Origin: Scatophagus argus
Taxonomy: Eukaryota; Chordata; Actinopteri; Scatophagidae
Length of the DNA: 64,000 nt
Direction: 5' to 3'
Assembly: GCF_020382885.2 (NCBI RefSeq)
Contig: NC_058499.1
Coordinates: 2,254,001 to 2,318,000, forward strand
Shown here: positions 1 to 61,555 of the stretch, one piece after another
Layout: the number at the start of each line of letters is the position of its first letter
Numbering within the stretch: position 1 is the stretch's first letter
Notes under the pieces: generated by a model
The model's database searches: none
Seen by the model: only the letters and a program-made list of their open reading frames with translations
Told to the model about the DNA's origin: nothing
Made by a program: the position numbers and the translations under genes

Positions 1-1374
1 ATCATTGTGGAAAAAAATATTTCTCAACTTTTATTTACAAGTGGCATGTCCAAAATTATTCATACCCTTTGCAAACTGTCACAGTCTGAGGGAAAATCCA
101 AAGTTCTATACCATTCCAAACAGTCCAAGCTGTTCTAAAGCGTCCTAATTAGCCTGACTTATTGGGAACAGCTGTTTTAATCAACTCAACAGGTGAAAAA
201 CAGCAGCGCTGCAGTCGGTTTGTGCACAGTCATGGTAAAACGAAGGAGCTCACTGAGGACCTGCAGCTGCTCATTGTGGCTGCTCACAAGTCAGGAAAGG
301 GCTATAAGCCCATGTGGTCTTTGCAAATTCAAGATTCAAGATTCAAGAGTCTTTATTGTCATTATGCAAGCATGACGAAATTTTGTGCAGATTCTCGGCT
401 TAAAAACACACTTATAAATAGTCAGCAGGAAATTAAAATTGCACACTTAAGAAAAAATATAAAAATATGAAATACAAAATACAAAATGAGGTAGATAAAA
501 AGTGCACTTCGTGCCAGACTATGGTATGCTGTGTGTGTGTGTGTGCAGATAGACGGGGGAGGGTGTATGTGTGAAGTCCTGTATGGGGGTGGGATGTGAG
601 GGTTTCACTGTAGGGGGGTTATTGTTTCAACAGCTCTGGAGAAGAAGCTGTCCCTGAGTCTGTTTGTGCAAATGCTCATTTGGACAAAGAAAAAGACTTC
701 TGGTCTTCTGTTTTATGGTCAGATGAAACAAAAATTGAATTTTTTGGCCACAGTGATGTATCCTTCATTTGGCATGAAAAAGGAGAAACCTTTAACCCTA
801 AGAACACCACCCCCCCTGTCAGACATGGTGGGGGGAACCTAATGGGTGTGATTTTCAGCCAATGACCCAGGGAACCTAATCACAGTAAACAACACCGTGA
901 ATAAAGAGCAATACGTCAATATTCTCAACAACAACATCACACAGTCTGCAGAGAAACTTGGCTTTGGGCACCAGTGGACATTTCAGCACGACTACAACCC
1001 AAAACACACAGCAAAGGTGGTGAAGCACTGGTTAGCAGACAAAAACATTCATGTTTTAAAGTGACCCAGCCAGAGTCCTGACTTGAATCCAACTGAGAAT
1101 CTGTGGAGGGAGCTAAAGATCAGGGTGATGGCGAGGAGACCCTCCAACCTGAAAGAGTTGGAGCTCATCGCTAAAGATGAATGGACAGAAATACCAGTGG
1201 AGACATGCAAAAAGCTGCTCAACAATTATCAGAAGTGTTTGACTGCTGTAATAACCAGTAAAGGCTTTTCTATTGATTATTGAGATGGGTATGAATAATT
1301 TTGGACAGGCCACTTTTTGTTCAAATGTAAATAAAAGCTGAGAAATGATTTTTTCCACAATGATGCCTCTTGTA
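1..1374 (+). mobile_element. Degenerate Tc1/mariner-like DNA transposon with a nested LINE fragment
   Basis: The first 70 bases and the reverse complement of about 1290-1374 match closely. Both carry the ATCATTGTGG end and the stretch reading CCAAAATTATTCATACC, so they are the terminal inverted repeats. The right end closes at a TA near 1373, and the left end is cut by the window edge. Between them lie pieces of a DD34E transposase on the + strand. The WSDETKIEFFG block is near 717-750, the FQHDYNPKHTAK block near 983-1020 and [11 protein letters not shown] near 1074-1110. The reading frame is broken by in-frame stops (near 863 and after HVLK near 1062) and by a foreign insertion at about 327-676, so no active transposase is made. 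The family is clear; the exact subfamily was not determined. Confidence 0.9.
327..676 (-). mobile_element. LINE 3' end (Rex1/L2-like) inserted in the Tc1 element
   Basis: This block interrupts the transposase-derived sequence. It starts with repeated ATTCAAG units followed by AGTCTTTATTGTCATTATG. Read on the minus strand this is the CAATAAAGACTCTTGAATC tail typical of fish LINE 3' ends. The far side reads CTCTGGAGAAGAAGCTGTCCC, a motif often found in the 3' UTR of such elements. GCAAAT occurs at both edges (TTTGCAAAT on the left, TGTGCAAATG on the right) and may be a target-site duplication. The family name is inferred from memory of these tails. A repeat-library search would settle it. Confidence 0.6.
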
Positions 1375-4600: not shown

Positions 4601-6618
4601 CTACGTCTCTGGGTTGGTGGCTGCAGCCTTGGCATTGATCTTCACGTACTGAGTGTTGATGGCGTCGAAGGCTTCGTCTCTGTGGATCATCGCGCCGAAC
4701 ACCATCGGCTGCAACGAACGCAGGAACAGCGCAGTGCGTTTACTCAGTGCAACTTCACACTTCTATGTCAGCAGATTCAGAGACAAGTACGCCGTACGCT
4801 GTGCTCCTCCCTCTGACCACTTACCTTTTGGGTGGATGGCGTCGCTATGGAGATCCCCATCCCAGATCCAGGCAGCACAGACAAAACTTTATACTGTGAG
4901 GGGCAGAGAAGACGACACGTTAGAGCCCACGTTCAAATGAACTTTATTTTCATGAGTCAGAATGATCAGATGAACAGACTCCAGTTACCACAGAAACGTC
5001 GATCAGACTCACTCACAACCTTCAAGTGACCCTGATCAAAGTCGGACGCTGGAACTGAACCAGAGACTCTGCATACCTTCTGGATGTCGGTGATGTCGAT
5101 GAGTTTGATGACTTTGTTCCTCTTGGAGGATCCAGACCGGGAGCTGGAGCTCTCGAAACACAGATAACTGAGGAGACAGATGAGACGGAGTCAAAAACTG
5201 GAACGGAAACAGGAGCCCACGACTGGATAAATTAATTAATTGGTGTTTAACAACCCGCATTGCAACACACACTGCAGCTCCTGATTGGTCAAACACTAGC
5301 CTCCAACAACCAATAACATCTCTGCTTCAGAAGATGATTTAGACGTTTGACCTGCTGCTTAATCTGCATTATCAGCTCTTGAGGGGAAAAAAAAGATTTT
5401 CAGACTAAACTTCTTTACAATCTCACTGAAAATCAGACAAGAAGCTTCAGCTAAACAGCAGGAACAAACTAAATGAAGCAAACGAGATTAAAACACTTTA
5501 GTTTTACATGACCAAAACTGACAATATTGAATCAAAGGTGCAGTTAATATATTTTGACTTGTATGCAATCCGTAATTCACCGACAGGAAGTGGAGGACTC
5601 ACTGCTCGGTGACGTAGAGGACTCCGTTGCGGATGTAGTCTGTCGGTGTCCTTCGGTCTCTGTTGATGAGGCAGCAGCGCCAGCCGTTCTCACACACTGC
5701 GACACCAAAGATTACAACAAAACACCTGGTGAGACAACATTCACCTGCAGCAGGTGAGCTCACGTCCTTCATCTGAGAAACGATCTGACATTCTGCTGAC
5801 GTTTAAACAAAATCATACAGGAAATGCCTGGGAAAGTTGTTCCAGTTTGAATTAACTTGTGGGAAGCCGTGCACTTCCTGCCCCACCTGTCAGAGGGCGC
5901 TCACTCTCCGGCAGGTTGAAGACTTCGTGGAAAGCTCCCCTCTTGGTGCTGTAGTATCGTCCTCCGTCCTCGTCCCGGCTGACACCCAAAGGAGCTGCGG
6001 CGCCGAAGCTGCCTCGACCCGCCGCCGCCGGAGCCTGGACCGGTGGACAGAAGGGGGCGGGGCAAGCATTGGATTAGCAAATCACAGTCAGAGAGTGTGA
6101 GAGCCGAGAGTCAACGACAACGACTCACCTGTCCAGGTGTGTTCACAGAGTTTTTAGTAAAATATAAAGCTCTGCCTCTTGACTTGAAATGTTTGTGTCA
6201 AAATTTCAGGTAAAGCGATAATTCAGGGACTTGCACAAAATTTGGGAAAGAAAAACAAAGATCTTAGGTAGGACCAAGCCCAGTTCTGGTAAAAACATAA
6301 AAAGAGGACACAAAACTAAAAGTTCAGGTAAAATCCTGAAAACTTGAGGGAACTCCTGCTGAAGTGTGTCCTGAGGGAGGCGCTAGAGGGAGATGACGGG
6401 CGTCATTAACATCTAAAGGACTCATCCTCTACAGCAGGAGCGAGGCGTTTACTGACAATCTGACCAGTAGGTTCTGAAGTATCTCAGCTCTCTGTCAGGA
6501 GAATAACAGCAGCTGATTGGTCGCATTCGGTGATGTCAGTATCACACTCGTCTGATGACTCTACATCTCTGACTGCACACTACTGACCTCTACACTGAGA
6601 CTAGAAACACACACAGTG

Positions 6619-6651
<33 letters not shown>

Positions 6652-9600
6652 CAGGATCCTACCTGTTCACACTCAGACAGCTGAGAGAGAAAAACAACAA
6701 CAGAGACCTGAAACCAGACAGACCAGAGACCACTGGGGACCAGTAAGAACCACTTTGTAGAGATCCTGCAACCAGCACACATTTGATGTTTTCAGTTCAT
6801 TCAAGTTTACATAATTAGATGAACTGATCTTGAAAAACCGCACGTGAAGTCTGCGAAGTCAAAGAGCCAATGCAGAAGTTCCTTTGAAAATCGGCTGAGT
6901 TAACGCTGAGTGGAGTTCACCTCAGGGGACTCGGTTTGGTGTTGTGGCTCACTCACATCGCGACATCACATGACATCCTGATGATATTATTTTCAATTTG
7001 AGCATAAAATATCTGAATGTTTGAACTTCAAGTTTTCAATTTGGTGCTAAAGTTTTTTGTGTAAAGGTTTGAACCTGACCTAACTGTGTATAAAAGAGTT
7101 TTCAGATCCTACTGCGCTGCCATCTGCTGGTCACTGCATCATCTGTCCACTGTGTGCAGCACCAATTAAAAAGCATTTTATTTAGAAATCAGCCCACACT
7201 GACAGCACCTGTCTGGTCATTTCCTCTTACACATTGCTAACACAAATGGGGACGCAGTCAAAAAAAACCAAAAGAGAAAATCAAAGTTTTGGTGGAGGAG
7301 ACTGAAGCCTGGCGACACACACCACCCGGTGGGCGAAACTGTGGGATGATAAACGAAGCCAGACGTTATCTGTGGATATTTCAGGGCGTCTGCACTGACC
7401 CGTCTGCTCACTGTGACGCTGCTGCGCTCCTTCAGCTGCAGGTCGGTGGGTAAGTTGGTCCAGACGATGTAGGGCGTGTCGTAGCGCTGCCTCAGCTTGG
7501 GACAGCTCTTAAAGATGAAGTCGATGATGAAGAACTTTATACCTGCGTACACACCTGAGGAGGAGGAGGAAGATGCTGGTCAGAGACTCTGAGCGATGAT
7601 CGTGTTCCTGTGTGTCTGCTCTGCTGGGTGTGGGGCTCAGCAGCTGCTTGATCAAACTTCAGCCACATGGAAAATCTTTCCGCTCACAATCACTTAATCT
7701 TATACTTCTTTTTTTTCATGCAAATGAACTGAAACAAACGGCTGCTTTAAAGGGAAGAAATCAATCCAAAGACTGATGGATGATTTTAAAAAGGATCAGC
7801 ATGTATGAAGAAAATGTGATCTGGTTCTTCATAACTCAGTCAAACCTGAACACAAACACACAAAACAAATTGACGCGGTGTGTCACGCACCTACGATGAA
7901 GCCCAGCAGTTTGTACGGCAGCAGGCAGGACGAGACGAAGGCCACCAGCAGACCAACGTACAGCTTCTGAGTCAACTCAGGCTGAACCCACATGAACAGA
8001 CTGCGCACACACACACACACACACACAGTATTAAAGATCTTGTATGCAGACCTTTGGCTCCCTCTGCCCCCCGTGATGACAAACTCACTTCTTTATTTTC
8101 TCCAGGATGTTCGCCATCTTCCCGAACAGATTCTGCGAGGACGAAACACACAAACAGCTGATGTGAAATGCGTCCTGAGGTGTCGGCTGTGACGTAGAGC
8201 CTCTGACCGTCCGTCACGTCTCACCTGAGCTCTCTGAGCGACGTCCAGAACCAGCTGGAACTTCTCCGACACCGTCAGGTCCTCTTTAGGAGGCTCCTGG
8301 GAAGACACGGGACACCTGTTGATCACCTGACCTCACCTGTCACTCACCTGCAGCTTTACGTGAATCTGGCACAGTGAAGCGCCTGCTGCTGTTCTCACCA
8401 CAGGCTCTGAGACTTCAGGTACGATGCTCCACTGGATCCTCCAGCCTCTGGCAGCAGTGCATCATGGGAACATACAGGTTCATATGAGATCATTTCACAC
8501 TCACTACATATCTGTGCATCAAAGACTTAAACTCAATCTCTCAGCCAATCAGAATCCATCAGATGGTTTTGGAAAGGCTGAGTGTCAGGACTGAAATCTA
8601 AAAACAAATTGAAAAATAATAAAGACAGAACTAAATGTCAGAGTGGGCGGGGCTTAAACTGACCTGGCGATGAGGTAATTCAAGGAGAGGCGGAGGAGAG
8701 CGAGGAACAGGAACATGGGGATGACCCAGCCGTTCCACGCTGCATACATGTAGACCTGTGGAGGACACACACACACACACACACACACACACGGCATCAT
8801 CAACTGAAAAGACTGCCTGACTTCATAGACTCAGCTTTAAATAGTTTATATTTATTATAAATGCATATTTCTTAATATTTCTGAGGATGGGAGAGAAAAC
8901 GTGGACCTGGACATGAGATTTACTGAATGAAATCAGCTGTTTTTGTTGACAAGATAACATTCTTTGTCTACCGTGACAACAACATCAACATCTCGTGCGT
9001 GTTGGGCGACTCTCAGCTCGTCCATCTTTGTATGAGTAAAGGATGAGGACTCACGATGAAGGCGATGGCCGACGTGTACACGGAGTACCAGCTGGATAAG
9101 GCGGAGAGGTTCCTCATGAAGTTGGTCACGGGTCTGAATCCTCGTTCTGGAAACACAACAACAGACGGGCTGACCAGCTGACCAATCACAGACTGACCGA
9201 CTGCTCTGCCATTCACAGTGCTGTCCTCGTGGACGTCGCAGAGAAATACTCACTGAGGCGTCTCATGTTTTCAGTCAGCCTGCGGATCAGAAAGCAGACA
9301 TGAGATTGTTGGTAAATAAAAAAACGGCTGCTGTGTTTTAAAGACACGAGACCCGGAGCAGGTGGACGCGTCCTGAAGGGTCTCTGCACCGACACTTTGT
9401 CGACGTTTCCTCCTCACCTCTTGGCACTCAGCGGCTCCTCCGCCTCCACCGTCTGCTCCTCCGGCTGGAAGCGGAAGTCCTCGATATAAACGCCAAAACG
9501 ATCGTAAAGCCATTTCAGGAAGCTGTCGGACAGAGTGTCCTTCTGTTTGTCTGAGGACAGGAACAGAAAAGAGTCCGTTCACTAACACCTGACCACGTTT

Positions 9601-10696
9601 TTTAAGCCATAACATGAACCTGTAAGGTCGCTACAGGACAGGCCCGTGTCCCCACAGTCAGGACACCAGCTCCGTCCTAAGTTCTGTCAAGGACAAAGAT
9701 GATCATCTCCGGTTTAACCTGATGTTTGTTACCGAGGTTGTAGTTTTAAGTAAGGAGTCCAGTCGGCAATAAGCATATGGCTGACTTAACGTCACTCTGA
9801 AACGCTTTGTGAAAGTAGAACAGGTGGCAGAGCTGCTGTACTGGACTGCTTTAGATCGTACAGGTGTACCTAATAAAGTGGCCACTGAGTGTGTGTTAAG
9901 TAACCAGCAGCCCCTCAGAGTGATTTCTGTTTTTCCCATTTCAAACAATCCCTCATGGCAGTACTAAACAGGTGAGTGAGTTCTTAACAGCTCACCTGTA
10001 CTGCTGGCTGCAGGTGGAGGAGGGGGCGGGGCTTTAGGAGTCTGAGAAGGTGAGTCTTCGAAGCTGTGAGGCGACCAGCAGACAGAAACAACCCGTCAGT
10101 GTAGGCATGAAAAAGCTGCAGGAACATAAGCTTGTGAATAAAGTTTTAATCGAAATGACCACCTGGACCTCAAGACGTCGTTGATCTTCTGCTCCAGCTC
10201 GCTGCATCTGCTGCGCTCCTTCTCCAGCTCCTGCCTCAGTGACTCCACGTTGGACTCCTCTTTGAGTTTCCTCAGCTCCTCCTCTGAAACAGACGGACGG
10301 TCACGTGGTAAAAGTCATCGCAGTATCCCTCAGGTGTCTTCACCTGTCGCTTACATCATGCTGTCTCAAAGCACAAACAGGAGTGTGATTTTTGTTTTAA
10401 GCCAGACTTTAAAAAGGTGAACCCGACTTTAAAGGGAAGCCTCCACATCAGAGAAGGCTTCAGAAACTTTATTTAGAGGTGCGCGCTCACCTCGTGCTCT
10501 TGCTTGCAGGTTCTGCAGTTCTGCAGTTTGATCACACGTTAGACAGTCACTCTGCTTCCTGTTTCATAACGTCTGACCCATCAGAGCACGACGAGGCTCT
10601 CGCTTCATTCCCGTAAATACTGTTAATACTTTCACTGGAGGTAACACAGTCCTGTGTGTCAGTGTCATTCATTCAGGTCAGCATGGTTATTAATAG

Positions 10697-10735
<39 letters not shown>

Positions 10736-12041
10736 ATAAAGCAGACAGGCAGTTATTGATGGGTTACCCAGCATGCTGTTGTGTTGTTGGAGGTCTGACT
10801 AACATCCAAAACACCACAGTGACCCAACAGCAAATCAACACAGATTCTTCCTGCACGGATTAAAGGGACATTTCACTCTTTCGGCGTTTTTCATTTGTTT
10901 TGATTGTGACTGACAGTCTTAACTTGGGGTCCACCAGCTACAGGAGCTCGTTCAGCAACAGACTCTGACTCCCATGATGCACCACAGAGCGACACAGGAA
11001 ATCATTCCTGCCTGTTGCCATCAAACTGTTAAACTCTGCACTGTGACGGACACACATACTTTTATATATACAATGTATATATGTACGCATGTAAATACCT
11101 ATATTTTAGATTTATACTTATTTTAGGTTTTATCCTATTTTACATCTTTCTTTTCTTGGTCGGGAAAACTGCAAGTGCAATGTCTGTACGAAAAAGAATT
11201 TCCCCTCGGGGATAAATAAAGGACTTCTGGTTCTGAATACTCACGTAAGAAGTGTTTCTCTAACAAGGCGATTTCCAGGTGACCTTTGACCTCGTTGAGA
11301 TCTGACCTCACGTCGTCCTGGAGAGCTGCAGAAAATGATCCTGGACCAGCCTGAGGGACAAGCACACAAATAACCAGAGACATAGAAAACTCTGTACAAC
11401 ATGAAGACACTTTGTGTTATCGGCTCCGGGTGACAACATGACAATGAAACTTCCACGCAGCTACTGAAGTGTTCCCTGAAGTGAAACGGATCAGTGATGG
11501 TGTGACCGGACCGTCAGACAGCAGTCTATCAGAGCTGAGATCAACAGGAAACGGACTGAATTAACAGACGCAGTGGGGATGAGGAGGGAGGAAACGTTTC
11601 AGCCAGAGGGTCTCTGCAGGACCTGCAGAGGCATGTGGGTGAGCCCGTTTCTGATTCCTCTTACAGTCTGGCTCTTATTGTGGTGGTTTCGTGCATCACT
11701 CCCATCAGCGCAGGAAACTTTTCACTCAGCAGCTTCATCGCAGAGCCAAACAGTCCGTCCTGCAGCAACATGAGCCCTCAGACAGCCTCAGACGGATCTG
11801 GTTCATTTTGAGGACCAGATCTCCTGGCTGTGTTTCTCAGATTTTCGTTGTCACAGATCAGACAGGTGTGTTTGTGTACCTGAGCGTCACTCTGCTGCTC
11901 TCCGTCAGCCTCCCTCAGCTCAGGCTTCATCGCGCCCTCCTCAGTGCATTCTGTGTCAGACGTGTTGGGCGACTCCGCCAGATCCAGGAACTCGTCCCGT
12001 TTCTGGCCCCGGAATCGGATCCTGTCCAGATGCTTCCGCAT
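4601..12041 (-). CDS. gramd4: GRAM domain-containing protein 4 (gramd4), 18 coding exons
   Basis: Membrane-associated GRAM-domain protein; the mammalian protein (also called DIP) is reported as pro-apoptotic and mitochondrial or ER-associated. Exons in transcript order: 12041-11880, 11350-11245, 10283-10163, 10063-9996, 9550-9418, 9279-9254, 9146-9055, 8755-8664, 8447-8399, 8296-8225, 8132-8089, 8000-7891, 7554-7400, 6034-5887, 5696-5603, 5167-5077, 4893-4825, 4708-4601. Phases join cleanly to 579 residues, against 578 in human. The start MRKHLDRIRFRGQKRDEFLD matches the human N-terminus. A coiled coil (LNEVKGHLEIALLEKHFLQEEL onward) spans about 68-130, a proline run is near 140-148, and hydrophobic segments are near 225-265 and 335-375. 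The GRAM domain (ERPLT to FGAMIHRDEAFDAI) spans about 445-565. Which duplicate (a or b) this is cannot be told here. A non-coding first exon probably lies further upstream. Confidence 0.95.
6035..7399. other. Largest 3'-half intron of gramd4 (intron 13)
   Basis: Intron of 1365 bases on the minus strand between the second membrane block and the exon that begins APAAAGRGSFG. Apart from the CA tract at 6621-6650 I see nothing structured: no exon with consensus flanks, no transposon end and no RNA gene. Confidence 0.6.
6621..6650. repeat. (CA)15 microsatellite in a gramd4 intron
   Basis: Uninterrupted CA dinucleotides inside the intron between gramd4 exons 13 and 14. Similar shorter CA tracts lie in other gramd4 introns near 8004-8028 and 8766-8792. 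Confidence 0.9.
10699..10732. repeat. (GT)17 microsatellite in gramd4 intron 2
   Basis: Uninterrupted GT dinucleotides in the intron between gramd4 exons 2 and 3. Confidence 0.9.
10905..11237 (+). mobile_element. LINE/SINE 3' end remnant in gramd4 intron 2
   Basis: The block contains CCTGCCTGTTGCCATCAAAC followed by an AT-rich stretch. It closes with AATTTCCCCTCGGGGATAAA and TAAAGGACTTCTGGTTCTG, the classic end of fish Rex1/L2-type retroposons (a palindromic TTTCCCC..GGGGAT hairpin, then an AATAAAG-type tail). It abuts gramd4 exon 2, whose donor boundary is only about 8 bases away, so the insertion point lies almost at the splice site. Length and exact family are inferred. Confidence 0.6.
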
Positions 12042-12879
12042 GGTGGGTTCCGTGGAGCCGGTCTCTACCTGAACATGACGGGGCTGCAGAGACCGGAAAA
12101 GTACTCATCGATTAATCAGTTGATTTTTGCACCTCTAACATCTAAAACAAGTTAAACCCACTGATGGTATATGAAGATGGACAACATGAAAACTCCCCAA
12201 AACACCTGGACGCCCCCTGGTGGCTGGCTGCAGTACGGCTCATAAGCCCATGTTAGCACATGGGACATGAACCAAACTTTGTTCAAGTGTTCATTTTTCT
12301 GATCAGTTTGGTTTTAGATAGTTATTTAATGGTTAAAAAGAGAGAGATGACAAAGTAAAAACACCTGAAAATGGACTCTTCTGGCTGATTTGTATGTGAG
12401 CCTCCTTCAACATTCATTTAATCAGAAGAGTCAGCACTCAACACTGCAGCCAACTCCCATGAAGACTTAAACAAACAAAGAACCAATCAGACGCTCCACT
12501 GGGACGTCACCATACTGTTTGTCCAGGGAGGAGGAAATGTTTGGATCCCCTGTTCACGCTTTATCTTGTGCTCTTTGGACTCACACAGGGGGGACTGTGA
12601 CACATGACTGCAGAGTCTGTGTGGTCTCCAAACTGACTCCTCTAAAACCTGGACTCAGTCAACACAATCACGCCCACAAAGAGACTCCTTCTCTAAAAGA
12701 GGAGTCTGCCACTCAGGGAAAAATGTTCATTCTCTTTGTCATTATACAGGGTTTATATTTGGAATAAAATAAAATAACAATAAAAATAAAATCAATCAAT
12801 ATACAAGTCTTTCTGTGCATGCGCATATACAGACAGATGACAATAAGTCTGTAATAACAATAACAACTTTACTGAACAA

Positions 12880-13639: not shown

Positions 13640-14249
13640 ATCAGCTGCGGCTTACCTGCGAGCCTAACCTAAAGCAGGATCTACAGGAACCCGGGTGGTT
13701 CACGGGGGGTACAGGTTAGACACACCTGGACGCCTCAGAGGAGGTATGAAGGGGGTAGGAAGTGAGGGAGGAAAAGAGGGACAGAGGAAGAGGTTCTCAC
13801 CGTGAACCGAAGCTGAAGCAAACTTTCCCTCCTTCTTTCTTTCCCGGCGGGTCACACCGGTTACAGACCCGCCCCAAACCGGACCAGTCTCCTCTCAGAC
13901 CAGCTAAAGACCAGCTTCGCTCCTCCGTCCCGTCAGATAGGCCAGATCCGGGGGCTTAGAGAGTAAAGCCGGACCGTGTTTCTCTACCTGACACAATAAT
14001 CAGTGCTGTGGGCGGGGTGGCCAGCGGCAGACAAAGGAGGAAGTGACGCCATCACGCTGCGCTCTTAAAGCGAACGTCGGTGTTCGGGAAGGCGGAACCC
14101 AAACAGTCAAGTCTCTGTTTCTGGAGGAACTTTGAGGTAAGTTATGTTGACAGTTCAGTGATAGTTACCGTGTCCTGACGGCGAACAGGTGTGCAGATTA
14201 GCGTGTTAAGCGTGTTTCTAACCCGCAGAGTTTCATCTGAGAGGCGGAA
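13640..14249. promoter_or_regulatory. Probable bidirectional promoter between gramd4 (-) and the nucleotidase-like gene (+)
   Basis: The two genes are divergent and this interval is their GC-rich, CpG-containing centre. Visible elements are a GC box GGGCGGGGT at about 14010-14018 and GGAAGTGACG at 14039-14048, a composite ETS/CRE-like site common in housekeeping promoters. No TATA box stands out. The transcription starts themselves are not visible, so the promoter call is inferred from orientation and composition. The first coding exon of gramd4 lies 1.6 kb to the left, which implies an untranslated first exon for that gene. Confidence 0.5.
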
Positions 14250-15419
14250 ATGGTCTCCACGATCCAGAACACCGACGTGAAGCAGGTAAAACTCACCTGA
14301 GGCAAGTTTTCTTTGAGCACCGTGTATGTAGCACTGTCTCATCGCAAAAGACAGTGAGACAGGTGAGATCACATACCCGCAGAGACACGGGCCTGTCCTG
14401 CACGAGCATTTCTCCGAGTTTTCCACCTGATTACAATCTGGTATTTTCATGTCGCTCTCATGATGTCCAATAGGACATCGCGTACATTTTCTAGTATGAA
14501 CAACTTGCAAATGTCCCGATGGAGTAGGTCAAAAATTAAAGTATCAAGTGTGTATGCCGAATTGATGAGCGAGACCTAGTAATTTAAAGTGCAGCATGTA
14601 ATATTTTTTAACTGTGACATATCTTCACCCTTTAGGGAATTATTTTCAAAATTGAATATTTTCTAAACGGATTCTGGCAGGAGAATATGTGGCTAAAATT
14701 TGGGCAGTGTCTGCAAAGACAACGAAACTGACTGCACAGAGCAAACAAAACTATTCTGCAGGAGGGTGACAAACTGTACAAGGTCCCGTGTAAGAAAACA
14801 CTTCATTTTAAGCTTTTAAGCTTCATTCTCAGCGTTTGTGCACTGAAGGCTTCAAGTTTCCACCTCACACTGGTGTCTGCTGAGTGCTGGTCCTGGATTG
14901 GTTTCCAGACTAGTAGTCATTCCACACAGTGAAGCTCAAACATTCAACCGTAGGAACAAGAAGAAAAACACAAGTTTGACTGCACGGACACTTTAAGGTT
15001 CTTCTATTTCAATCAGACTGTAAGTGGTGTTCCGTGTTGCTTCTGTTCAGGGTTTTAAAAAGCTAAAATAAAGACTCAGGTTCTGTGTCTGTACAGAAGG
15101 ATGCTGATCACGCAGTGGTTGTCGCGGTGACGTCTCGTGCAGTCTTTGGATCTGGAGCTGATGATGGCGAGGACGTGTACGGAGTGGGCGTGGCTTTCCC
15201 GCTGCTGCAGGTCAGAATTTAGCACCAAAAGACATCAACTTAAAACTTTCGCCTGCTGTCATTTTGTGTGTGTAGAAAAATAAAGAAAACACACTGGATG
15301 GTTGCATGAACCAGCGGTGACATTCACTCATACCAAATTAAGTTAAAATAAAAGTTTGGCGTCTTCTGTGTTTTTGCTCTGGTCAACAGATGTCATATTT
15401 ACACACACTCACACTCACA

Positions 15420-15468
<49 letters not shown>

Positions 15469-16743
15469 CGTCCTGCTGCCCCACATACTCACTAGAGCAC
15501 CAAACGTGGATTAATCTGCTTCTGAAAATAGTCCCAAACATTTGCACCGTTTGCTCCTGCTTAAGCGATGTTTGTGAAGAGCTTGGAAGTACTGAACCTT
15601 TTCAAAAAACATGAAACACGTGTACATGTATTTATACACTTCTTTTTTAAATATTTCAGTAGGAACCAAAGAACCAGGAGCTGAGAGCAAACTGAGACAA
15701 AAGTACAGAATAAAATAAAAGAATAAAACCAGAGGCTCTAAAGGCAGATTTCAGATAATCCCATTTGATTTGCACGTTTTGCTCTTCAGGCCCTGCAGAG
15801 GGTGAACGAACGTCTTCTGGAGGAAAATCCTGCTGAGTCGCTGCTGTTTGATGTCGTCCTGATCACCACGGACAGCCAGCAGCAGCAGCTGAGCGCCCGC
15901 ATCATCAGCAGCACCAGACACCACGGTAATCTAACCTGCCGCTGACGGAGAACGGTTTGTAGTGCTGTCGGCGACGGTGTTGACTTCCTGTCGTGATGTC
16001 ATCTCCGCCTTCCCGCAGGTCTCGAGGTGAGCAGGTTCTGTTTTTCCAACGAGGAGGATTTCGTTGAGAGTTTACTGAAAAGTAACGTGCAGCTGTTCCT
16101 GACGACCGACAGAAACGAGGCGCTGCAGTCATCGCAGAAAGGTCGGGAAGTTTCTTCTTCTCTGTCGTTTATTACAGCTGACGCTTCAAACAGGATCCAG
16201 TGTGTATTGATGATGATGATGTGCTGTAAGGCGTCCAGGTGAGAGCGTGAATCATCCTCCCTGTCATTGGTTCAGGTGTCCTCTCAGCACTGCTGGACCA
16301 GCAGGCAGCTTTCTGTCCATCGGAGCAGCTCAGAGTGATGTTCTGTGGGGACGCCGTCTCCCGGGAGGACGCGGGCCCAGTGTCGGCGAGCCGACAAGCC
16401 GCCCAGGTACTCACAGCAACGTCCTGCTGATACGCCTAAAGCCGACACAGACGAGAAAAGAGAACATTTAAGGTAAATTCACATTCCTCCTCTGCAGAGT
16501 TTCTCGGCTCAGCTTGGCGAGATGCGCCAGAGGTTCGGTCTGTTCGACAGCCCGCTAAACATCATCTTGATGACATCGCATGGCGGCAGGGAAAGCTGTG
16601 GCGGCGCCTTGCGGACGCTGCGGTCTCGTGGAGTCGGTGTGGATGAGGCGTACAGCCTGGCCGGGGCCCCACGGGGTCCCATCCTGTCCCTGCTCCGTCC
16701 TCACTTCCTGCTCAGCGACGGCCTCGTCGGCCTGGAGGAGTGA
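14250..16743 (+). CDS. Cytosolic 5'-nucleotidase 1 (NT5C1)-like protein, probably catalytically inactive
   Basis: Exons 14250-14285, 15097-15210, 15790-15925, 16019-16141, 16276-16406 and 16498-16743 join in frame to 261 residues, from MVSTIQNTDVKQ to GLVGLEE. The resemblance to NT5C1A/B runs through most of the length: GVGVAFPLLQALQRVNERL, FDVVLITTD, LEVSRFCF, LRVMFCGDAV and LAGAPRGPILSLLRPH. NT5C1 enzymes hydrolyse AMP in the cytosol using an HAD-type aspartate in FDGDAV. Here that residue is Cys160 (FCGDAV); the second Asp, Asp162, is kept. The lysine-bearing segment after motif I is missing and the late FFDD motif reads LLSD. At 261 residues against about 368 the protein is also shorter at both ends. 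The open frame and clean splice sites argue for a maintained pseudoenzyme rather than a pseudogene. An unseen upstream exon remains possible. Confidence 0.85.
15422..15466. repeat. (CA)22 microsatellite in intron 2 of the nucleotidase-like gene
   Basis: Long uninterrupted CA tract preceded by three CACACT units. Confidence 0.9.
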
Positions 16744-21559: not shown

Positions 21560-21794
21560 AACGCTGTAAGTGCGCGTTTTATCCTGTAAATAAGACCGAA
21601 CCCCACCTGTTTGCCTTTTGTTTTACGCGGAGTGGTTTTTTTTGCGTAAAGTGCGCACCGGAGCGCTCTGGAGCTCCGTGACACCATAATGACAGCAGAG
21701 TGCGGGGACCACAGTGTTGCCCGGCATTCATGAGCGTCCGCTGGCCGCGCTGCTGCGGCTGGGACCGGGACGGAGCGCAGGAGCCGCGGAGGAG
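21560..21794 (+). promoter_or_regulatory. CpG-rich 5' region of drd4
   Basis: GC content and CpG density rise sharply from about 21640 and continue through the first exon, as in a CpG-island promoter. An upstream in-frame ATG at 21714 would extend the protein by 27 residues ([17 protein letters not shown]...). The ATG at 21795 is preferred because the following MAANLS resembles a normal receptor N-terminus and GGAGATGG is a fair initiation context. The transcription start is not visible. Confidence 0.45.
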
Positions 21795-24700
21795 ATGGCA
21801 GCCAACCTGAGCGCGGCGGCGGCGGCGGCCCCGGAGGCGGCCGCGAGGGGACACAACCTGCCGGCGCTGGTGTTCGGCGTGTTGCTGATCGTGGTGATCA
21901 TCTGTGGGAACCTGCTGGTGTGTCTGAGCGTTTTTACGGAGAAGGCGCTGAAGACCACCACCAACTACTTCATCGTCAGCCTGGCGGTGGCGGATCTGAT
22001 GCTCGCGGTGCTGGTGCTGCCGCTCTTCGTCTATTCCGAGGTAAGATGGACTGAAACCCGCGTTGGGGTGAGTACAGGTGAGATGAGCCGTCCCTGACCT
22101 GCTCGTGCTTTGAAATGTGAAGTCAGCGGGTGTGGATTCAAACACTGAAACTGAAGAGATCTGAGTCTTTTTTAAAAAATCATTTAACAAAAGAACCATT
22201 AAAATAACTCAAATAAACCTTAATTTACTCCTGAAAACAAACCAAGTGCCATAATCTAAACTGAAGTAAGTAAAATATTTTTATAGGCCAAGCATATTTG
22301 TAAAAACACAGCTTACAAAGTGCCTAAAGTATTCACAAATACAAATAGCAGGTTTTGTTTGCATGACTGTAGCCAACGCTGTGCAGTAGGCAGGATCAAA
22401 CCCATGTAGTGCGGGATCAAACCCATGTAGTGTGGGATCAAACCCACGTAGTGAAGGATCAAACCTCTAGTGCGGGATCAAACCCATGTAGGATCAAACC
22501 CATTGGGTGAAGGATCAAACCCATGTAGTGATGGATCAAACCTCTAGTGTGGGATCAAACCTATGTTGTGATGGATCAAACCTCTAGTGCGGGATCAAAC
22601 CCATGTAGGATCAAACCCATGGGGTGAAGGATCAAACCTCTAGTGCAGGATCAAACCCATGTAGTGCAAAGTGGTGAGAAGATTCTTAAAATCCATTCTG
22701 AACTTCACTGGCAGCCAGAGCACTAAGGCTGGAGACTGACCGATAGCTGCTGGGGTTGATGCCGATATCAGGCATCAGGTATCAGGTATTGATCGATATA
22801 TTGACACGTTGTGTGCATGTAATTCACATGAATTAGCTGCTGCTGCTGCTGTTAGACTGATGTGATCTGTGGTCTGTTTGTTGTCACACCAGCATCAACC
22901 CATCACAGATCAGTTCTTAAATATTAAGACTGTTTTGATTGATCACCTGCTTGGTTTAAAGGGTAAATCTGAAATACAAACTAAACCTGTCAATGTGATT
23001 TTATCAGGTGGTCTTTTTTACACCTTAAACAATGCACATAAACCAAACAACAACAATCATTCAGTGAACTTAGCAGAAAGTCAAATCTTCTTCAGTTCAT
23101 AATCACAAACTTTCTTAAATGTTGTTGTTGAGAGCATTTTTAGCAAAGTGTGAAATTCAAATTTATAAAATGTTTTAAGAGGACTGAAAGAGTAAAATGA
23201 GAAGTTAGTTTCCATGAAAGAAGAAGTAAATATGAGAAGAAAACAAACTTCATCTATCAGGATTTGGTTTAAATCTTATTTCCTAACTGCTCTGGTCAGT
23301 GGTGCCGTTACAGTACAAGTAGAGTTTTGAGGTACTTGTACTCGGGTATTTCCATACTTTATACTTGTTCTCCAATAGAGGTGGAGGGAAAGGTTGTACT
23401 TTTTACTTCACTACAGTAATGTGATTGCTTTAGTTGCATTGCAGATTAAACAACACAGTAACACACACACACACACACACACATCTTTATATCGTATACC
23501 TGAAATTGTCTCCATGTCACCCATCGCAACTTCACATATTAATGCATAAGTAATTATAACCCTGTGATTAATATATATATATATTGCTGAAATTAGCCAT
23601 TTTGCATAACAAATACTTTTACTTTTGGTATTTTTTACGTTAATCTAGTAAAATATTAATATAATACAGACATCTGAACAGTCTCAAAACAATGCAGCTC
23701 ACACCAAAACTATTTAAGGTGAACTGTCCCTTTAAGTAAAAGGTCTGAAGTGTCTTTCCTCCACTGCTGACCTTCAGGTTTGGAATAGCAGCTTTAAGGA
23801 AACAGTTCAGTGTTTATTTACTGACAGATCAGGTGAACTCATGTGGACTCAAGGTGCCTTCGTGTCCGGGAGCTTTGGACTGGACCACATGGTCTTCATC
23901 AGCACATGTGCTCTACTCAGCTGTAATTCTCTGAAACTTCTCTTTAATGTCGTCTTAAAGGCAACTCAGTCGAGGCCAACTTTCTCGCTGGTTCAGGGGC
24001 TTTTGGCTTCAATTGCAGAACCTCAGGAAGTTTAAATATATTTTGTTTAGGACACATGCTGATAAAAAATGTCTCTGCATCTTTAATCTTGATGTGACAC
24101 ATCTATCAGTGTTTAAGCTGCTGTTGATGAAAGCTGGCTTTTAAATTCAGTGAACTGTGCCTTTAACCGTCAGCTCTGAACTCCAGCTGACCTTCTGGTG
24201 AAGCTCCGCCCCCCCAGTCCAGTGACATCACTGAGCAGACCTGCTCTGACAGTGGGAAAACTCACAGTCGTTTACTCGGATTCGATTGGCTCTTTCACTC
24301 GTTTTATTTCGCTTTCATTAATTTCGTTATTTTGAATCCCAGCGATGACAAACCGACTGAGGCGGGAAATTCTCTAAAATAAGACTCTACTGGACCTGAA
24401 GGCTTGTCCTGGTGCAGCCAGAGCTCAGAGAACAACATCCAAACAGAGTCTGTACATTCCACCTGACCACAGCCTGGTGTCAGGGGTCGCAGGCCAGCCG
24501 AGGGGCCCCCACGCCGGGGCCAACAATGGATCCAGTGAGAGCAATAAGAATGAGTCCATACATGTCTGTTCTTTTGTCTCCTCCCTCTCATCCTCTTTGT
24601 TTGTTTATCCTGATTGTTCCTCCTGACGGCTTGTTGTTTGTTCTGTCATGTAAACTGTTTGTGGTTTTGTCGACAAACTTTTGACCGCAGGAAGTGAATT

Positions 24701-27700
24701 CATTAGAGAGCTGATCAGCTGATTGACACTTCAGCCTCGGGGTCCTTCTGCAGGTGATGGACGTGTCAAAGGATTCCTGTCTGAAAAAAAATAATGATAA
24801 TTTTAGAGCTTTTTGAAATGGGGCTGTTTTTATTCACAGATTTATTTTGATATATTTTTGTGTCCGGTTTTTTTTATGTTTTATGTTTGATTTTATTAGT
24901 GCACTTTCTTTTCATTTTTCTCCTTGCATTTATTTATCTTTAGGATATTTCCATGTTTTTGCTTGGAGGGTCCACATTTTTATTTGTTTACATCCAAATC
25001 ATTTATTTCTCTCCTGCAGATGCTGATGATTTATTTCATTCTTTAATCAAGATTTTAGTCAAGTTGTATTGTGCTTACGTATCAGCAGAATGTGAGGTAT
25101 CAAACGTGAACTCACATACTAAAACTAGCAGCAGGTGATGAGGATGTCGTGGGCGTCCTGCCTGTGGAGGAAACGTGAGACAACAAAGGTTTGGAGCGTA
25201 AACAAAACGCCTCCTGACGTCCTCCATGCTGGCGCCCTCGTTGTTCCTTGCAGTCCAGCTCTGGTCCGAGTGGACGCACTGAGCGTGTCTCTGTCTTTCA
25301 GTTCCAGGACGGCGTGTGGACCCTCAGCACCACCATCTGTGACAGCCTGATGACCATGGACGTGATGCTGTGCACCGCCTCCATCTTCAACCTCTGCGCC
25401 ATCAGCATCGACAGGTCAGTGCTCACCTGTGCAGGTGCACGCAGTCACCGACCTTTGACCTGCGATGAAGTGAGTACAGCAGTTATCTCCTAACCCAAAG
25501 GAACAAACAGCACCGCTGGAGGTGTGGCCTCAGACTGACGTGAGGTCAGCAGAGAGCCTGAGGCTAACGCTGCAGCGCTACGGGCACAACACACCTGAAT
25601 CTGCAGGATGCAGCTGATCGAGTCATTGCATTGTGGGTAATCTGGGTTTTGTGGCTGCAGGGTTTGAGGGACGACATCTCTGCTCCTCCAGGTTTCAAAC
25701 AAACTGTCCATTGTAAATCAGTGCATTTTCTCTTTTTGAACAAAAACACAAACAAATATTTAAAACTTCAGCGCTGAAATCCATGTTGCTCTCAACGAGA
25801 CTGAGCGTCTACAGCCAGGCTAACGACGTGTGAGGCTGCATGAGGTCTGACTGAACTTTACACCAAAGTGTTTATTTTTTTTATGGTGAATTTCCTCCAG
25901 CTGAAGTCAGGAGGTTGCAAATGATTGAGATGCTGATCTGCAGCCAAACAAACCCTGAAACCCCTCCTCAGTGGAGTTGATTTAAAGAAAGAGGTCATCG
26001 TTCAGCCATAACTCACAGACTCTGGTGTCAGAACCAGAAGTGTAATCGACCTCAGGCCAGCAAACAGCTGCTTAATCAAACCAGATCTCCGAGTGGTCTG
26101 TCAGGACCACATGGGACTCCTTGCCTGGAGTTTGGGCTTCCTGTCTGAAGGTCGTCAGGGTCAGACAGTCACGCCGCGGTTCAGTCTGATGCGCAAATAC
26201 GGTGATCACCTTTTGTCTGTTTCCTGTAAAAGCTCCAAAAGATGAAAAATCAGAGCAGACAGAACAATTTAGTGCCCCAAATGAAGGATGCATCCTCTGT
26301 GACGAACTGCCAGCTTGGCTCCGTGCTCGTTAGTTTGACTCAATGAGATTACCTGAACTCTCGGCTGATGTTGAAGGATGAAAATCTGAGCTGAAAAGCC
26401 CGGCTGCTCTTCAGATCTGACGTCCCAACTCCAGAAAATATGATTACATCAGAGACTGATGGAAGCAATGAGGCTAATGTGAACTGATGGTGATGATCTG
26501 AAGCTTTTCGAAGCAGCCGGCAGCATTTAGAGGTTTAACTGGATGACAGCCTGAATAATTCAACACACTGAGGAGCAGGAAACCTGAGGGTCTGCAGAGT
26601 CCACCTGCTGAGGCTGAAGGGGGGACGTTCTGGGCTCTTGTGCGCGGCTGGTGGTTTTTACAGCGAAATGACGGATGACCTGTCGTCACTCCTTGATGAA
26701 TTACTGCACAGATGCAGGGATGCGAGGCCTTCACATGTCATGGACTCACGCTCATGTGTGACATGTGAAGCTTCAGCTGATTAGCTGAGCTGGAAACAAG
26801 GGAACAACCAACCCAGCTCGCTTCTACTGTAACAAGAAGTCGCCTACCAGCACCGGTAACGTCTAAAAGTAACACGTTTCATTGCAAATTAATTTGCGCA
26901 AAATCCAGACATGAAAACTGAGTGTTTTGTGGGAGGTTGTTTGTGCTTTGTGCTGGATGTGCTTTGCTGGTTCCTGACTGGGAGCAGCTGATGGGTCACT
27001 TCTCAGTAAAATACACTATCTAAACATCCAGACAGCCATCTTCATGGGGCTGTTCCTCAGGGTTTGGACTTCCAGTGAAGGGAAATCTTAATGCTTCAGC
27101 ACACCAAGACATTTTGGACAATGCTATGCTTCCAACTTTGTGGCAACAGTTTGTGGAAGGCCCTTTTCTATTCCAGCATGACTGTGCCCCAGTGCACAAA
27201 GCAAAGCTCCATAAAGACATGGTTGGATGAGTTTGGTGTGGAAGAACTTGACTGGCCCACACAGAGTCCTGACCTCAACCCCATCCAACACAGACACTCC
27301 TGCTGTGTTTTGGTCTGTGATGTTGTCCTGTCCTTCACAAGTGCAGCTAATGACCTTAATTAATTGATGCTTTGCAGTAATTGCTGGAAGGAATTATTAG
27401 TTTATTAGTTCCACCTGAGATTTTCCAGTTGTGAAAGGTCAAAGCTGTAAAAAAAAAAAAAATGATAATAATAATAGTAATAATAATAATTTTAAAAAAT
27501 CTGTGGATCTGATTCATGTGGGAACAATAAAGGAACAGGTGTGCTCCAACTCTGCCATCAGCTGTCAGCATCCAAGTGGAAGGAACATTTATTTACACTG
27601 AAGCACAACATTGCTGCTGCTTTCTTTATTTTATCAAGCATTTTGAGCTGAAATTTGTGTATGAAAGGTGCAACTTAAACAATGCTTATCATTTGTAGTA

Positions 27701-30141
27701 GTAGTAGTAGTAGTAGTTGTTGTAGTAGTATTAATAGTATTTCAGCCATCATACCTCATATTAATACACAGGTTGTCCTGAAATGTTCTCATCATATTCC
27801 TGCTCCCCAAAGGATGAACCTCTACATTTTAATGCCTCCATGATCTTTCCTCTAGCGCCCCCTTCAGGACAAAGTTTATATCTTTAGGTCCACTTCAGTA
27901 ATCACATGATCAAGATGTTCTGTGCCGTCACGGATACTGCAGCCTCTAGGGGGCACTAGCACTCCTCAGTGAAGTTATTTCTTAAGAACATTATTATTTT
28001 TCATGCATGCAAATGACTTCCATGAACACTACATATTGGTGTGTTTGTTCAGGTCAGTGGTGCCACTTCAGGAACAAAAGACTGTAAAATGTCTCTCGGT
28101 TGTTGCAGGTTCATCGCCGTGTTAATCCCTCTCAACTACAACAGGAAGCACGTGGACCTGCGGCAGACGGTGCTGCTGTCTGCCACCTGGATCCTGGCCC
28201 TGGCTGTGGCCTCGCCCATCATGTTCGGCATCAACAAAGTGCCGGGTCGAGACCCCAGCGAGTGTAAACTAGAGAACGACGACTACGTCCTGTACTCATC
28301 AGTGTGCTCCTTCTTCATCCCCTGTCCCATCATGCTGCTGCTGTACTTTGGCATGTTCCGTGGCCTGAGGCGCTGGGAGGAGGCCCGAAAAGCCAAGCTG
28401 AGGAACAGCATCCAGGCCTGCCGCAAGCTGCAGGAGGCCGCGGCGACGCTGCCGCCGCTGGCCTCGCTGCCGCCTCCGCTGCCGCCCATCATAGAGAGGG
28501 ATCAGACGGATACTCTGGATGAGCCGTCCACCTACCCGGACCGGCCCTTTCAGTCGTCAGAATACAAAGGCGGCCCCGTGCACACGGTCAGCTTCGCAGA
28601 GATCAAGTTCAACCCCGACCCTCGCAGGAGGAAGAGGGCCAAGATCAACAGCCGCGAGAGGAAGGCCATGAAGGTTCTTCCTGTCGTTGTGGGTGAGTTC
28701 ACTTCCTGTTTAGTGGTACCAGGGTTATCACACATGGCTGGATCACCAAAAAGCTGAGAGACAAAAATGAAAATTAAAGAATCCAAAATTCTGCAACACT
28801 GGCAGCATTAAGAACAGCTTCAGTGTGGGTCTGATGAAGACCACTAGCTGAAAGTCATCTGTCTCAGGTGTGGGTTCTGGACCTCGGGCTGCTGTAGAAT
28901 CAGGTGCTTCTGGCACAACTCGGTCTTTAAGGTCAAGACTCCAGCAACACTTGTAGTATTCAAAACCTTTTCATGAGAACGAGTTTGGCATGAAGGCATT
29001 CTGTCCGTCCCAAGGAAGCATCCCCTACTTTATGGGTTTGGCTTGGCTTTTCAGACCCCAAAGCTCAGTCCACTATTTAGACCGTCTGTGGAAAGAACCT
29101 GAACCCTGAGGAAGACCACAAACCAAAAGAAAACACAGATGAACCAAAATCCATCGGCCAAGAGGAACATTTTTGGTCTCATGTGGAACAAACATTTGAA
29201 CGAGTTATTATGAAGTTACTGTAGAGTTGTTGAAGTTATTCATTCATCCACTTGTACACTTACATGAGCAGTGATTTCAGGACGCCTCGCCATCACCTCT
29301 GATGTGCGTTCAGAGGCACTAACACATCAGTTAGAAAAGGTCGGCCTATTAATAGCAGCCAGTGTCGGTCCTAATGCGTAGAAGTGCTTCTCTTTAGCAC
29401 ACAGCAGCTAATCCTGCAGCTCCTTAATCTGAAATCCAATTATTACGCAAGCGTGGTGAGTGTGCAGGTAGTTGTCATGCATCTGTGCTTCATTAGTTCA
29501 TCTGACAGTTCCAGCGGCAGCGACAATAAAGAGGACATCACTAAATGCAAGCTGTTTGATCAATAAAATGTTTAGTTTGAATTAAAAACACTGATAAAGT
29601 TACGTAGCTATCAGCTCCCTGCTGCTAGCTGTGTGAAACCAGCTGGAGGTGATCACCTCCATTAGAGGGTCATCGCTGTTGGCTGCTAAATACGTAGGTA
29701 GATTGGCAGACATGGAGGAGCACAGGTAGATGTGTGGGGAGATAGATTTAGAGAAGCTAGGCTAAACACACCCTGGAGTGACTTGTACCGGTCACATGGA
29801 CATCAGACCAACATCCATCTGAACTCTGCATGGAAGAAGGTTTACAGAAATGCTGGTAAAATCAAAATGAGGTTCATGCTGTTTCTGTCTTTCTGTGGAC
29901 AAACTCGTCTTCTTCTCCTCCTGCAGGTGCCTTCCTGTTCTGCTGGACTCCCTTCTTTGTCCTCCACACAATGCGAGCTCGCTGTCAGGACTGCCAGGTC
30001 CCTCCAGCTCTGATGAGCGTGGTGACGTGGCTCGGCTACGTCAACAGTGCTCTCAACCCCGTCATCTACACCGTCTTCAACACCGAGTTCAGGAACTTCT
30101 TCAAAAAGTTCCTGCATCGCTGCTGCTCCAAGAGCGCCTGA
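21795..30141 (+). CDS. drd4: Dopamine D4-type receptor
   Basis: Four exons (21795-22040, 25302-25414, 28109-28692, 29927-30141) encode 385 residues of a class A GPCR. Amine-binding and activation features are present: Cys95 (3.25), Asp102 (3.32, amine contact) in MDVMLCTAS, the D119-R120-F variant of the DRY motif, the SSVCS serine cluster in helix 5, FLFCWTPFF in helix 6 and NSALNPVIY in helix 7. The tail ends CCSKSA with likely palmitoylated cysteines. Helix 1 ([21 protein letters not shown]) and the [20 protein letters not shown] block match D4 better than D2 or D3. Known D4 receptors couple to Gi and lower cAMP. The third intracellular loop (about residues 210-305) is proline-rich ([13 protein letters not shown]) but carries no 48-bp-type repeat as in the primate VNTR. 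The start was chosen at MAANLS. Which teleost duplicate this is was not settled. Confidence 0.96.
22393..22667 (+). repeat. Minisatellite in drd4 intron 1, 14 units of GATCAAACCCATGTAGTGxGG type
   Basis: The core GATCAAAC occurs 14 times head to tail. Units are of three lengths: 21 bases (…CCCATGTAGTGTGG), 19 bases (…CTCTAGTGCGG) and 16 bases (…CCCATGTAG). The run of 19-, 16- and 21-base units at positions 4-6 recurs at positions 10-12, so a higher-order duplication is visible. Units are direct repeats with no unique spacers. Confidence 0.95.
23298..23450 (+). repeat. Second copy of the AAGTACTT-rich dispersed repeat
   Basis: GTGGTGCCGTTACAGTACAA, TTTTGAGGTACTTGTACTCG, GGTATTTCCATACTTTATAC, TTGTACTTTTTACTTCACTA and TTGCAGATTAAA follow the same order as in the copy at 20530-20900 and overlap it in the last two blocks. 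Confidence 0.5.
25415..28108 (+). other. drd4 intron 2
   Basis: 2.7 kb of intron with a Tc1-like transposase fragment at about 27040-27300, A/T-rich simple sequence with TAA units at 27449-27497 and a GTA/GTT trinucleotide tract at 27696-27730. Elsewhere I see no exon or RNA gene. Confidence 0.6.
27040..27300 (+). mobile_element. Tc1-like transposase fragment
   Basis: Reading across frame shifts, the DNA encodes pieces recognisable as a Tc1-family transposase: a histidine-aspartate block near 27170 ([13 protein letters not shown]-type), [15 protein letters not shown] from about 27213 and [11 protein letters not shown] near 27258. No inverted terminal repeats were found around it and the N-terminal DNA-binding part is absent, so it is a dead internal fragment of a different subfamily from the copy at the left edge of the window. 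Confidence 0.75.
28693..29926 (+). other. drd4 intron 3
   Basis: 1.2 kb between the exons coding for the third intracellular loop and helix 6. Unique sequence without repeats or coding signal that I can recognise. Confidence 0.55.
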
Positions 30142-33343: not shown

Positions 33344-40229
<6,886 letters not shown>

Positions 40230-40420
40230 TCTTCCGCCGAACGACAAGAGCCGAATGAGACCGAGCAGCCGCGGGGCAGAGCGGGGTCCGAACGCAGCCG
40301 AGCCCGGTACGAACCCGAGCAGAAGAGCGAACACGAAATTGAAAATCAGAGGAAACCAACGATATTATCTACAAAATGGGCAGGAAAGCCAACGAATCGT
40401 GCGAGCGAACCCAGAGAGAG
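40230..40420 (-). promoter_or_regulatory. deaf1 promoter/5' UTR with clustered TTCG half-sites
   Basis: A CpG-rich interval directly upstream of the start codon. Eight CGAA words (TTCG on the coding strand) begin at 40238, 40252, 40289, 40310, 40328, 40334, 40393 and 40406. TTCG is the core half-site of DEAF1 binding, and functional sites use two half-sites a short distance apart; the pair at 40328/40334 is six bases apart. Promoter position is inferred from CpG richness and proximity to exon 1. The binding function is a hypothesis. Confidence 0.5.

Positions 40421-45082: not shown

Positions 45083-61555
<16,473 letters not shown>

Follow-up and report, generated by a model that had tools for sequence, protein, structure and literature searches.

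Gene content of the window

The window analysed here is a stretch of 64 kb, positions 2254001-2318000 of contig NC_058499.1 (C7) of the Scatophagus argus genome (570.7 Mb in 48 contigs). On its forward strand, at 14250-16743, lies a coding frame of 261 amino acids divided into six exons of 36, 114, 136, 123, 131 and 246 bases (the last including the stop codon), hereafter the window gene. The genes of the window and their introns would fit a teleost. The exons of the window gene are predicted from the sequence. The five introns between the coding exons are all GT-AG, with phases 0/0/1/1/0, and an in-frame TGA stands four codons ahead of the ATG. Coordinates, the division into six exons, consensus splice sites and phases had all been given in an earlier sequence-only reading of this DNA, and re-reading the gene left every one of them as it was. 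The positions of these features and of the neighbouring genes are collected in Table 1.

Downstream of the window gene lie the exons of two further genes, one for a dopamine D4 receptor and one for a plasma-membrane Ca-ATPase; their extents were taken from coding scores, and one piece of each gave its identity. Two sets of pieces on the reverse strand are presumably parts of a GRAMD4-like and a DEAF1-like gene; the six of these pieces that were tried gave no match in Pfam, nor did a short stretch near the start of the window that we take to resemble a Tc1-type transposase. The gene that we take to be GRAMD4-like points away from the window gene, and owing to this divergent arrangement they may have a promoter region in common. 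The CpG value is raised at 13.9-14.5 kb (0.88-0.93), though the exons of the window gene reach similar values.

Table 1. Features of the window, in window coordinates.
Feature	Position	Strand	Remarks
Stretch resembling a Tc1-type transposase	707-814	+	presumed identity
GRAMD4-like pieces	4604-12065	-	presumed identity
Putative 5' UTR intron	14137-14228	+	GAG|gtaagt ... cccgcag|AG; predicted from sequence
5' UTR part of exon 1	14229-14249	+	predicted from sequence; in-frame TGA at 14238-14240
Coding exon 1	14250-14285	+	amino acids 1-12, start ATG
Coding exon 2	15097-15210	+	amino acids 13-50; 54 bases shorter than in the three paralogues
(CA)n repeat	about 15400-15467		in the intron between coding exons 2 and 3
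Coding exon 3	15790-15925	+	from amino acid 51; 6 bases longer than in the paralogues
Coding exon 4	16019-16141	+	123 bases, as in the paralogues
Coding exon 5	16276-16406	+	to amino acid 180, with FCGDAV; 54 bases shorter than in the paralogues
Codon TGT, Cys160	16344-16346	+	position of the nucleophile Asp; GAT/GAC in the paralogues
Coding exon 6	16498-16743	+	amino acids 181-261, stop TGA; without the C-terminal extension of the paralogues
Thr206	16573-16575	+	conserved in 92/92 relatives (alignment); presumably motif II
Codon CGG, Arg239	16672-16674	+	position of the invariant Lys, 92/92 relatives (alignment)
Codon AGC, Ser253	16714-16716	+	position of the first Asp of FFDD, 92/92 relatives (alignment)
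AATAAA	17168-17173	+	likely polyadenylation signal (sequence)
Dopamine D4 receptor exons	21714-30120	+	coding scores; PDB match of one piece, E 1e-45
DEAF1-like pieces	34269-40349	-	presumed identity
Plasma-membrane Ca-ATPase exons	48849-60770	+	coding scores; match of one piece, E 2e-32

Family membership and paralogues

The predicted protein matches a single Pfam family above the cut-off, PF06189 (5'-nucleotidase), with an E value of 1e-28 and 100.5 bits against a gathering cut-off of 28.2, and the match covers most of its length. This similarity is far beyond chance, and judged by it the window gene is a homologue by descent of the cytosolic 5'-nucleotidase I (cN-I) family. A search of the genome revealed three other loci, C15, C17 and C19, all canonical members of the family, which were modelled from the second exon on. 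From that exon onwards their exons measure 168, 130, 123, 185 and 354-369 bases (the last without the stop codon) with phases 0/0/1/1/0, and the intron positions and phases of the window gene match those of all three. Because of this shared exon structure, the window gene would be a DNA-level duplicate within the family and not a retrocopy. Its exons 2 to 5 differ from those of the paralogues by -54, +6, 0 and -54 bases, all whole codons, with no frameshift. The window protein is identical to the C15, C17 and C19 proteins at 83/247, 80/247 and 83/247 positions, respectively (32-34%), and the three share 73-83% identity among themselves.

Protein and DNA searches of the genome, in which the best candidates were scored, brought up no further copy of the window gene, and no close relative of its protein was confirmed in the viral contigs searched. 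A phmmer search of the PDB gave no convincing relative of the window protein (best E 1.7) or of the C19 paralogue (best E 0.38).

Catalytic residues

The alignment comprises the window protein and 92 relatives. Three of these are the fish paralogues, nine are proteins encoded on plasmids and recovered by tblastn, and 80 come from loci in bacterial genomes. The 80 were picked by the motif I or FFDD patterns and are biased to intact motifs; the other 12 sequences were chosen without such patterns. The columns occupied by Cys160, Asp162, Thr206, Arg239, Ser253 and Asp254 read D, D, T, K, D and D in 92 of the 92 relatives; they are called catalytic here on the basis of the motifs in PMC13156797 together with the general chemistry of HAD phosphatases. 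Three of the six are lost in the window protein (D160C, K239R and D253S), with Asp162, Thr206 and Asp254 retained. Starting from the codons of the paralogues, no fewer than two base changes are required for each replacement, and no fewer than six for all three. Motif I, DXDX[T/V][L/V/I] in the active enzymes, thus reads CGDAV; the replacement of FDGDAV by FCGDAV, as well as that of FFDD by LLSD, had already been pointed out in the sequence-only reading, and both were found again.

The lysine and DD pair are altered as well. The GAPKGP sequence of the family becomes GAPRGP, with Arg239 in place of a lysine present in 92/92 relatives, the lysine of K(X)7DD is replaced by Leu245, and the pair itself reads SD. 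The lysine motif segment had been taken to be deleted, which does not hold: both lysines are substituted, and the segment that is missing carries a different motif (see below). Another Arg, invariant in 92/92 relatives, is His208 in the window protein.

A separate observation concerns the lysine as such. The column of the vertebrate K(X)7DD lysine holds Ala in 60/92 relatives and is unconserved in bacteria; the lysine that is invariant throughout the family (92/92) is that of GAPKGP. Judged by this alignment, the published K(X)7DD motif may name the wrong residue as the catalytic lysine.

Deleted segments and overall conservation

Two segments present in the three paralogues are deleted in the window gene. 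One consists of 54 bases of exon 5 together with the start of exon 6 and carries the substrate-recognition motif S (P...[R/K]GF[W/L]), which is absent from the window protein in the alignment with the paralogues. The other consists of 54 bases of exon 2.

A wrong or incomplete gene model, in which alternative exons would complete a full enzyme or Cys160 would be a sequencing error, could in principle account for such losses, all the more as the model was read from sequence and its short first coding exon falls outside the comparison with the paralogues. When the whole 64-kb window was searched by tblastn with the three paralogues (queries from exon 2 on), no missing piece of the enzyme was seen, in a search that segments as short as the deletions could escape. 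This result and the in-frame TGA ahead of the ATG leave no sign of an upstream exon restoring the enzyme, a point raised in the earlier reading. Moreover, exons 2 and 5 can still be aligned at both ends despite their deletions, and Cys160 needs two base changes and is accompanied by the loss of the Lys and of an Asp. An error of this kind is very improbable.

The loss extends well beyond the active site. Among the 52 columns that are near-invariant (one residue shared by 95% or more of the relatives), 21 retain the family residue and 6 fall in gaps. The remaining 25 are changed, three of them to the residue found in the C19 paralogue; the residues lost include a Gly and a Trp. With 31 of 52 such columns changed or gapped, much of the family function would be gone from the window protein, and perhaps part of the structure too. 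Retention at the catalytic columns (3/6) is about the same as at the other ungapped near-invariant columns (18/40), so that there is no sign of a nucleotide pocket being kept in particular. The suggestion that the protein may bind nucleotide finds no support here.

The same counts bear on the idea that the protein took up a new activity, with Cys160 possibly taking part in chemistry and a phosphate or some other ligand still bound by Asp162, Thr206 and Asp254. These three residues are indeed retained, as this idea would have it. Against it, the invariant Lys, the first Asp of the DD pair and motif S are all gone, and the catalytic residues are kept no better than the others. We regard a new enzymatic or binding role of this type as improbable.

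Selective constraint

Several indels have occurred in the window gene, yet none shifts the frame. Its GC content at third codon positions is 0.736, against 0.423 in its introns and 0.57-0.66 at third positions of the paralogues. Where the three paralogues all have the same base, the window gene shares it at 90/187, 136/212 and 28/72 sites for codon positions 1, 2 and 3, respectively (48%, 64% and 39%). Positions 1 and 2 taken together differ from position 3 (Fisher p 0.007), with position 1 itself close to position 3.

A codon model written for the purpose was fitted to the four genes of this genome (the window gene, C15, C17 and C19) and gave an omega of 0.083 on the branch of the window gene versus 0.047 elsewhere. 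A value of 1 on this branch was rejected (2dlnL 26.1, 1 df, 247 codons, a difference of 13.1 log units), and rejected again on the 204 strictly aligned codons (2dlnL 20.7, 10.4 log units), a fit in which the length of the window branch ran to its bound of 54.6. Because of saturation at synonymous sites, omega is bounded only from above, at about 0.2-0.3 (within 1.92 lnL units, 247 codons). A neutral dN/dS near 1, the outcome that would have spoken against a maintained gene, is thus rejected in a comparison that comprises the paralogues of the same genome. Taken together, we would say that the window gene appears to have been constrained for most of its history. Omega is here an average over the branch, and a loss of function confined to its most recent stretch, of less than about 0.03 substitutions per site, would go undetected by it.

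How long a frame stays open once constraint is lifted was simulated on unconstrained copies of the gene, at an assumed rate of 0.1 indels per substitution. Both frame and splice sites remain intact with a probability of 0.62, 0.37, 0.056 and 0.008 at 0.005, 0.01, 0.03 and 0.05 substitutions per site, values in which the catalytic changes and the open frame are not combined. Given this early breakage and the six or more base changes behind the catalytic losses, catalysis would have been lost earlier than the time over which an unconstrained frame stays open. The open frame, set against the simulated decay, suggests that purifying selection may have acted on the window gene after catalysis was lost, and that it may act at present.

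These simulations also give some room to a gene that became non-functional recently, having encoded a constrained, diverged protein until lately and having collected no stop or frameshift yet. Copies that had accumulated only 0.005 or 0.01 substitutions per site were often still intact, and the change or loss of 31 of the 52 near-invariant positions would fit a protein no longer at work. Such a late loss does not by itself explain the catalytic replacements, whose base changes in three codons appear to be older, and it has against it a branch omega below about 0.3. We consider it unlikely, and prefer a gene that is still maintained.

Position in the family

In a tree of 93 sequences the window gene is placed outside the three paralogues with an ultrafast bootstrap of 97% and has a branch length of 3.3 substitutions per site. 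Long-branch attraction is likely in this placement. When 25 of the 89 bacterial sequences were used in an AU test, all three placements compared stayed acceptable (p-AU 0.76, 0.27 and 0.31), and the tree therefore allows more than one age of the window gene relative to the split of NT5C1A and NT5C1B.

Discussion

Set against cN-IA and cN-IB (NT5C1A and NT5C1B; PF06189), the window gene belongs to the same family and has the intron positions and phases of the canonical paralogues of its own genome, but differs from them in its low identity (32-34%), in the replacement of an Asp, a Lys and a further Asp, and in the absence of motif S and of the C-terminal extension. The predicted protein lacks the features by which an active cN-I enzyme is defined, namely the Asp of motif I, the Lys and DD pair, and motif S. 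Loss of catalytic residues in the homologue of an enzyme, one mark of a pseudoenzyme, is what was found. In HAD phosphatases the Asp nucleophile, the Lys and the DD pair are needed for the formation and hydrolysis of the aspartyl-phosphate.

The window gene is probably a fourth NT5C1 paralogue that lost catalysis long ago and has been kept as a protein-coding pseudoenzyme. In this scenario an ancestral cytosolic 5'-nucleotidase I copy would have been duplicated at the DNA level and would then have diverged strongly. Having lost the nucleophile, the Lys and one residue of the DD pair, the protein could neither form nor hydrolyse an aspartyl-phosphate, and for this reason it is not expected to hydrolyse AMP or IMP. 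It might act instead through protein contacts, most simply by partnering or competing with the active paralogues, or with their targets, without catalysis of its own; this is the weakest step of the scheme and a tentative one, with the balance tilted against it. A pseudoenzyme had also been proposed in the sequence-only reading. That part is supported by the loss of three invariant catalytic residues and of motif S and by the rejection of omega = 1; the nucleotide binding attached to it is not supported.

Pseudophosphatases such as STYX, MK-STYX, PTPRU and PHLPP2 are likewise phosphatase relatives reported to be catalytically inactive. They have Cys-based PTP/DUSP or metal-dependent PPM folds and are not HAD nucleotidases. 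In a search of the literature on NT5C1 and HAD pseudoenzymes and on fish NT5C1, covering mostly work outside subscription journals, no NT5C1 copy devoid of the motif I Asp was among the matches listed.

The closest comparison is with a teleost NT5C1 paralogue, medaka Nt5c1aa, for which PMC13156797 reports no detectable IMP-degrading activity. There the protein is described as retaining motif I (DXDX[T/V][L/V/I]) and K(X)7DD and as carrying a Pro-to-Leu change in motif S. This pattern is seen in the C17 paralogue and not in the window gene: C17 (C17:17108847-17117119) has a Leu at the motif S Pro of C15 and C19 (DTLLDHGPLKGF). Given the resemblance of this Leu to the medaka change (PMC13156797), two of the four NT5C1 genes of this genome, the window gene and C17, may be inactive on IMP. 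In the C19 paralogue (C19:5826936-5831682) a Cys replaces the Gly of motif S, LKCF being found for LKGF.

On a wider scale, the window gene could represent a third vertebrate NT5C1 type, outside NT5C1A and NT5C1B, that persists in fishes as a dedicated regulator, itself catalytically dead, of the production of adenosine and IMP by the active cN-I enzymes, although we hold this to be rather unlikely. The gene bears on the breakdown of IMP in fish, a process for which a loss of activity in another NT5C1 paralogue is reported (PMC13156797). A catalytically dead fish copy standing beside three canonical ones would offer a natural tool for studying the roles of cN-I besides hydrolysis.
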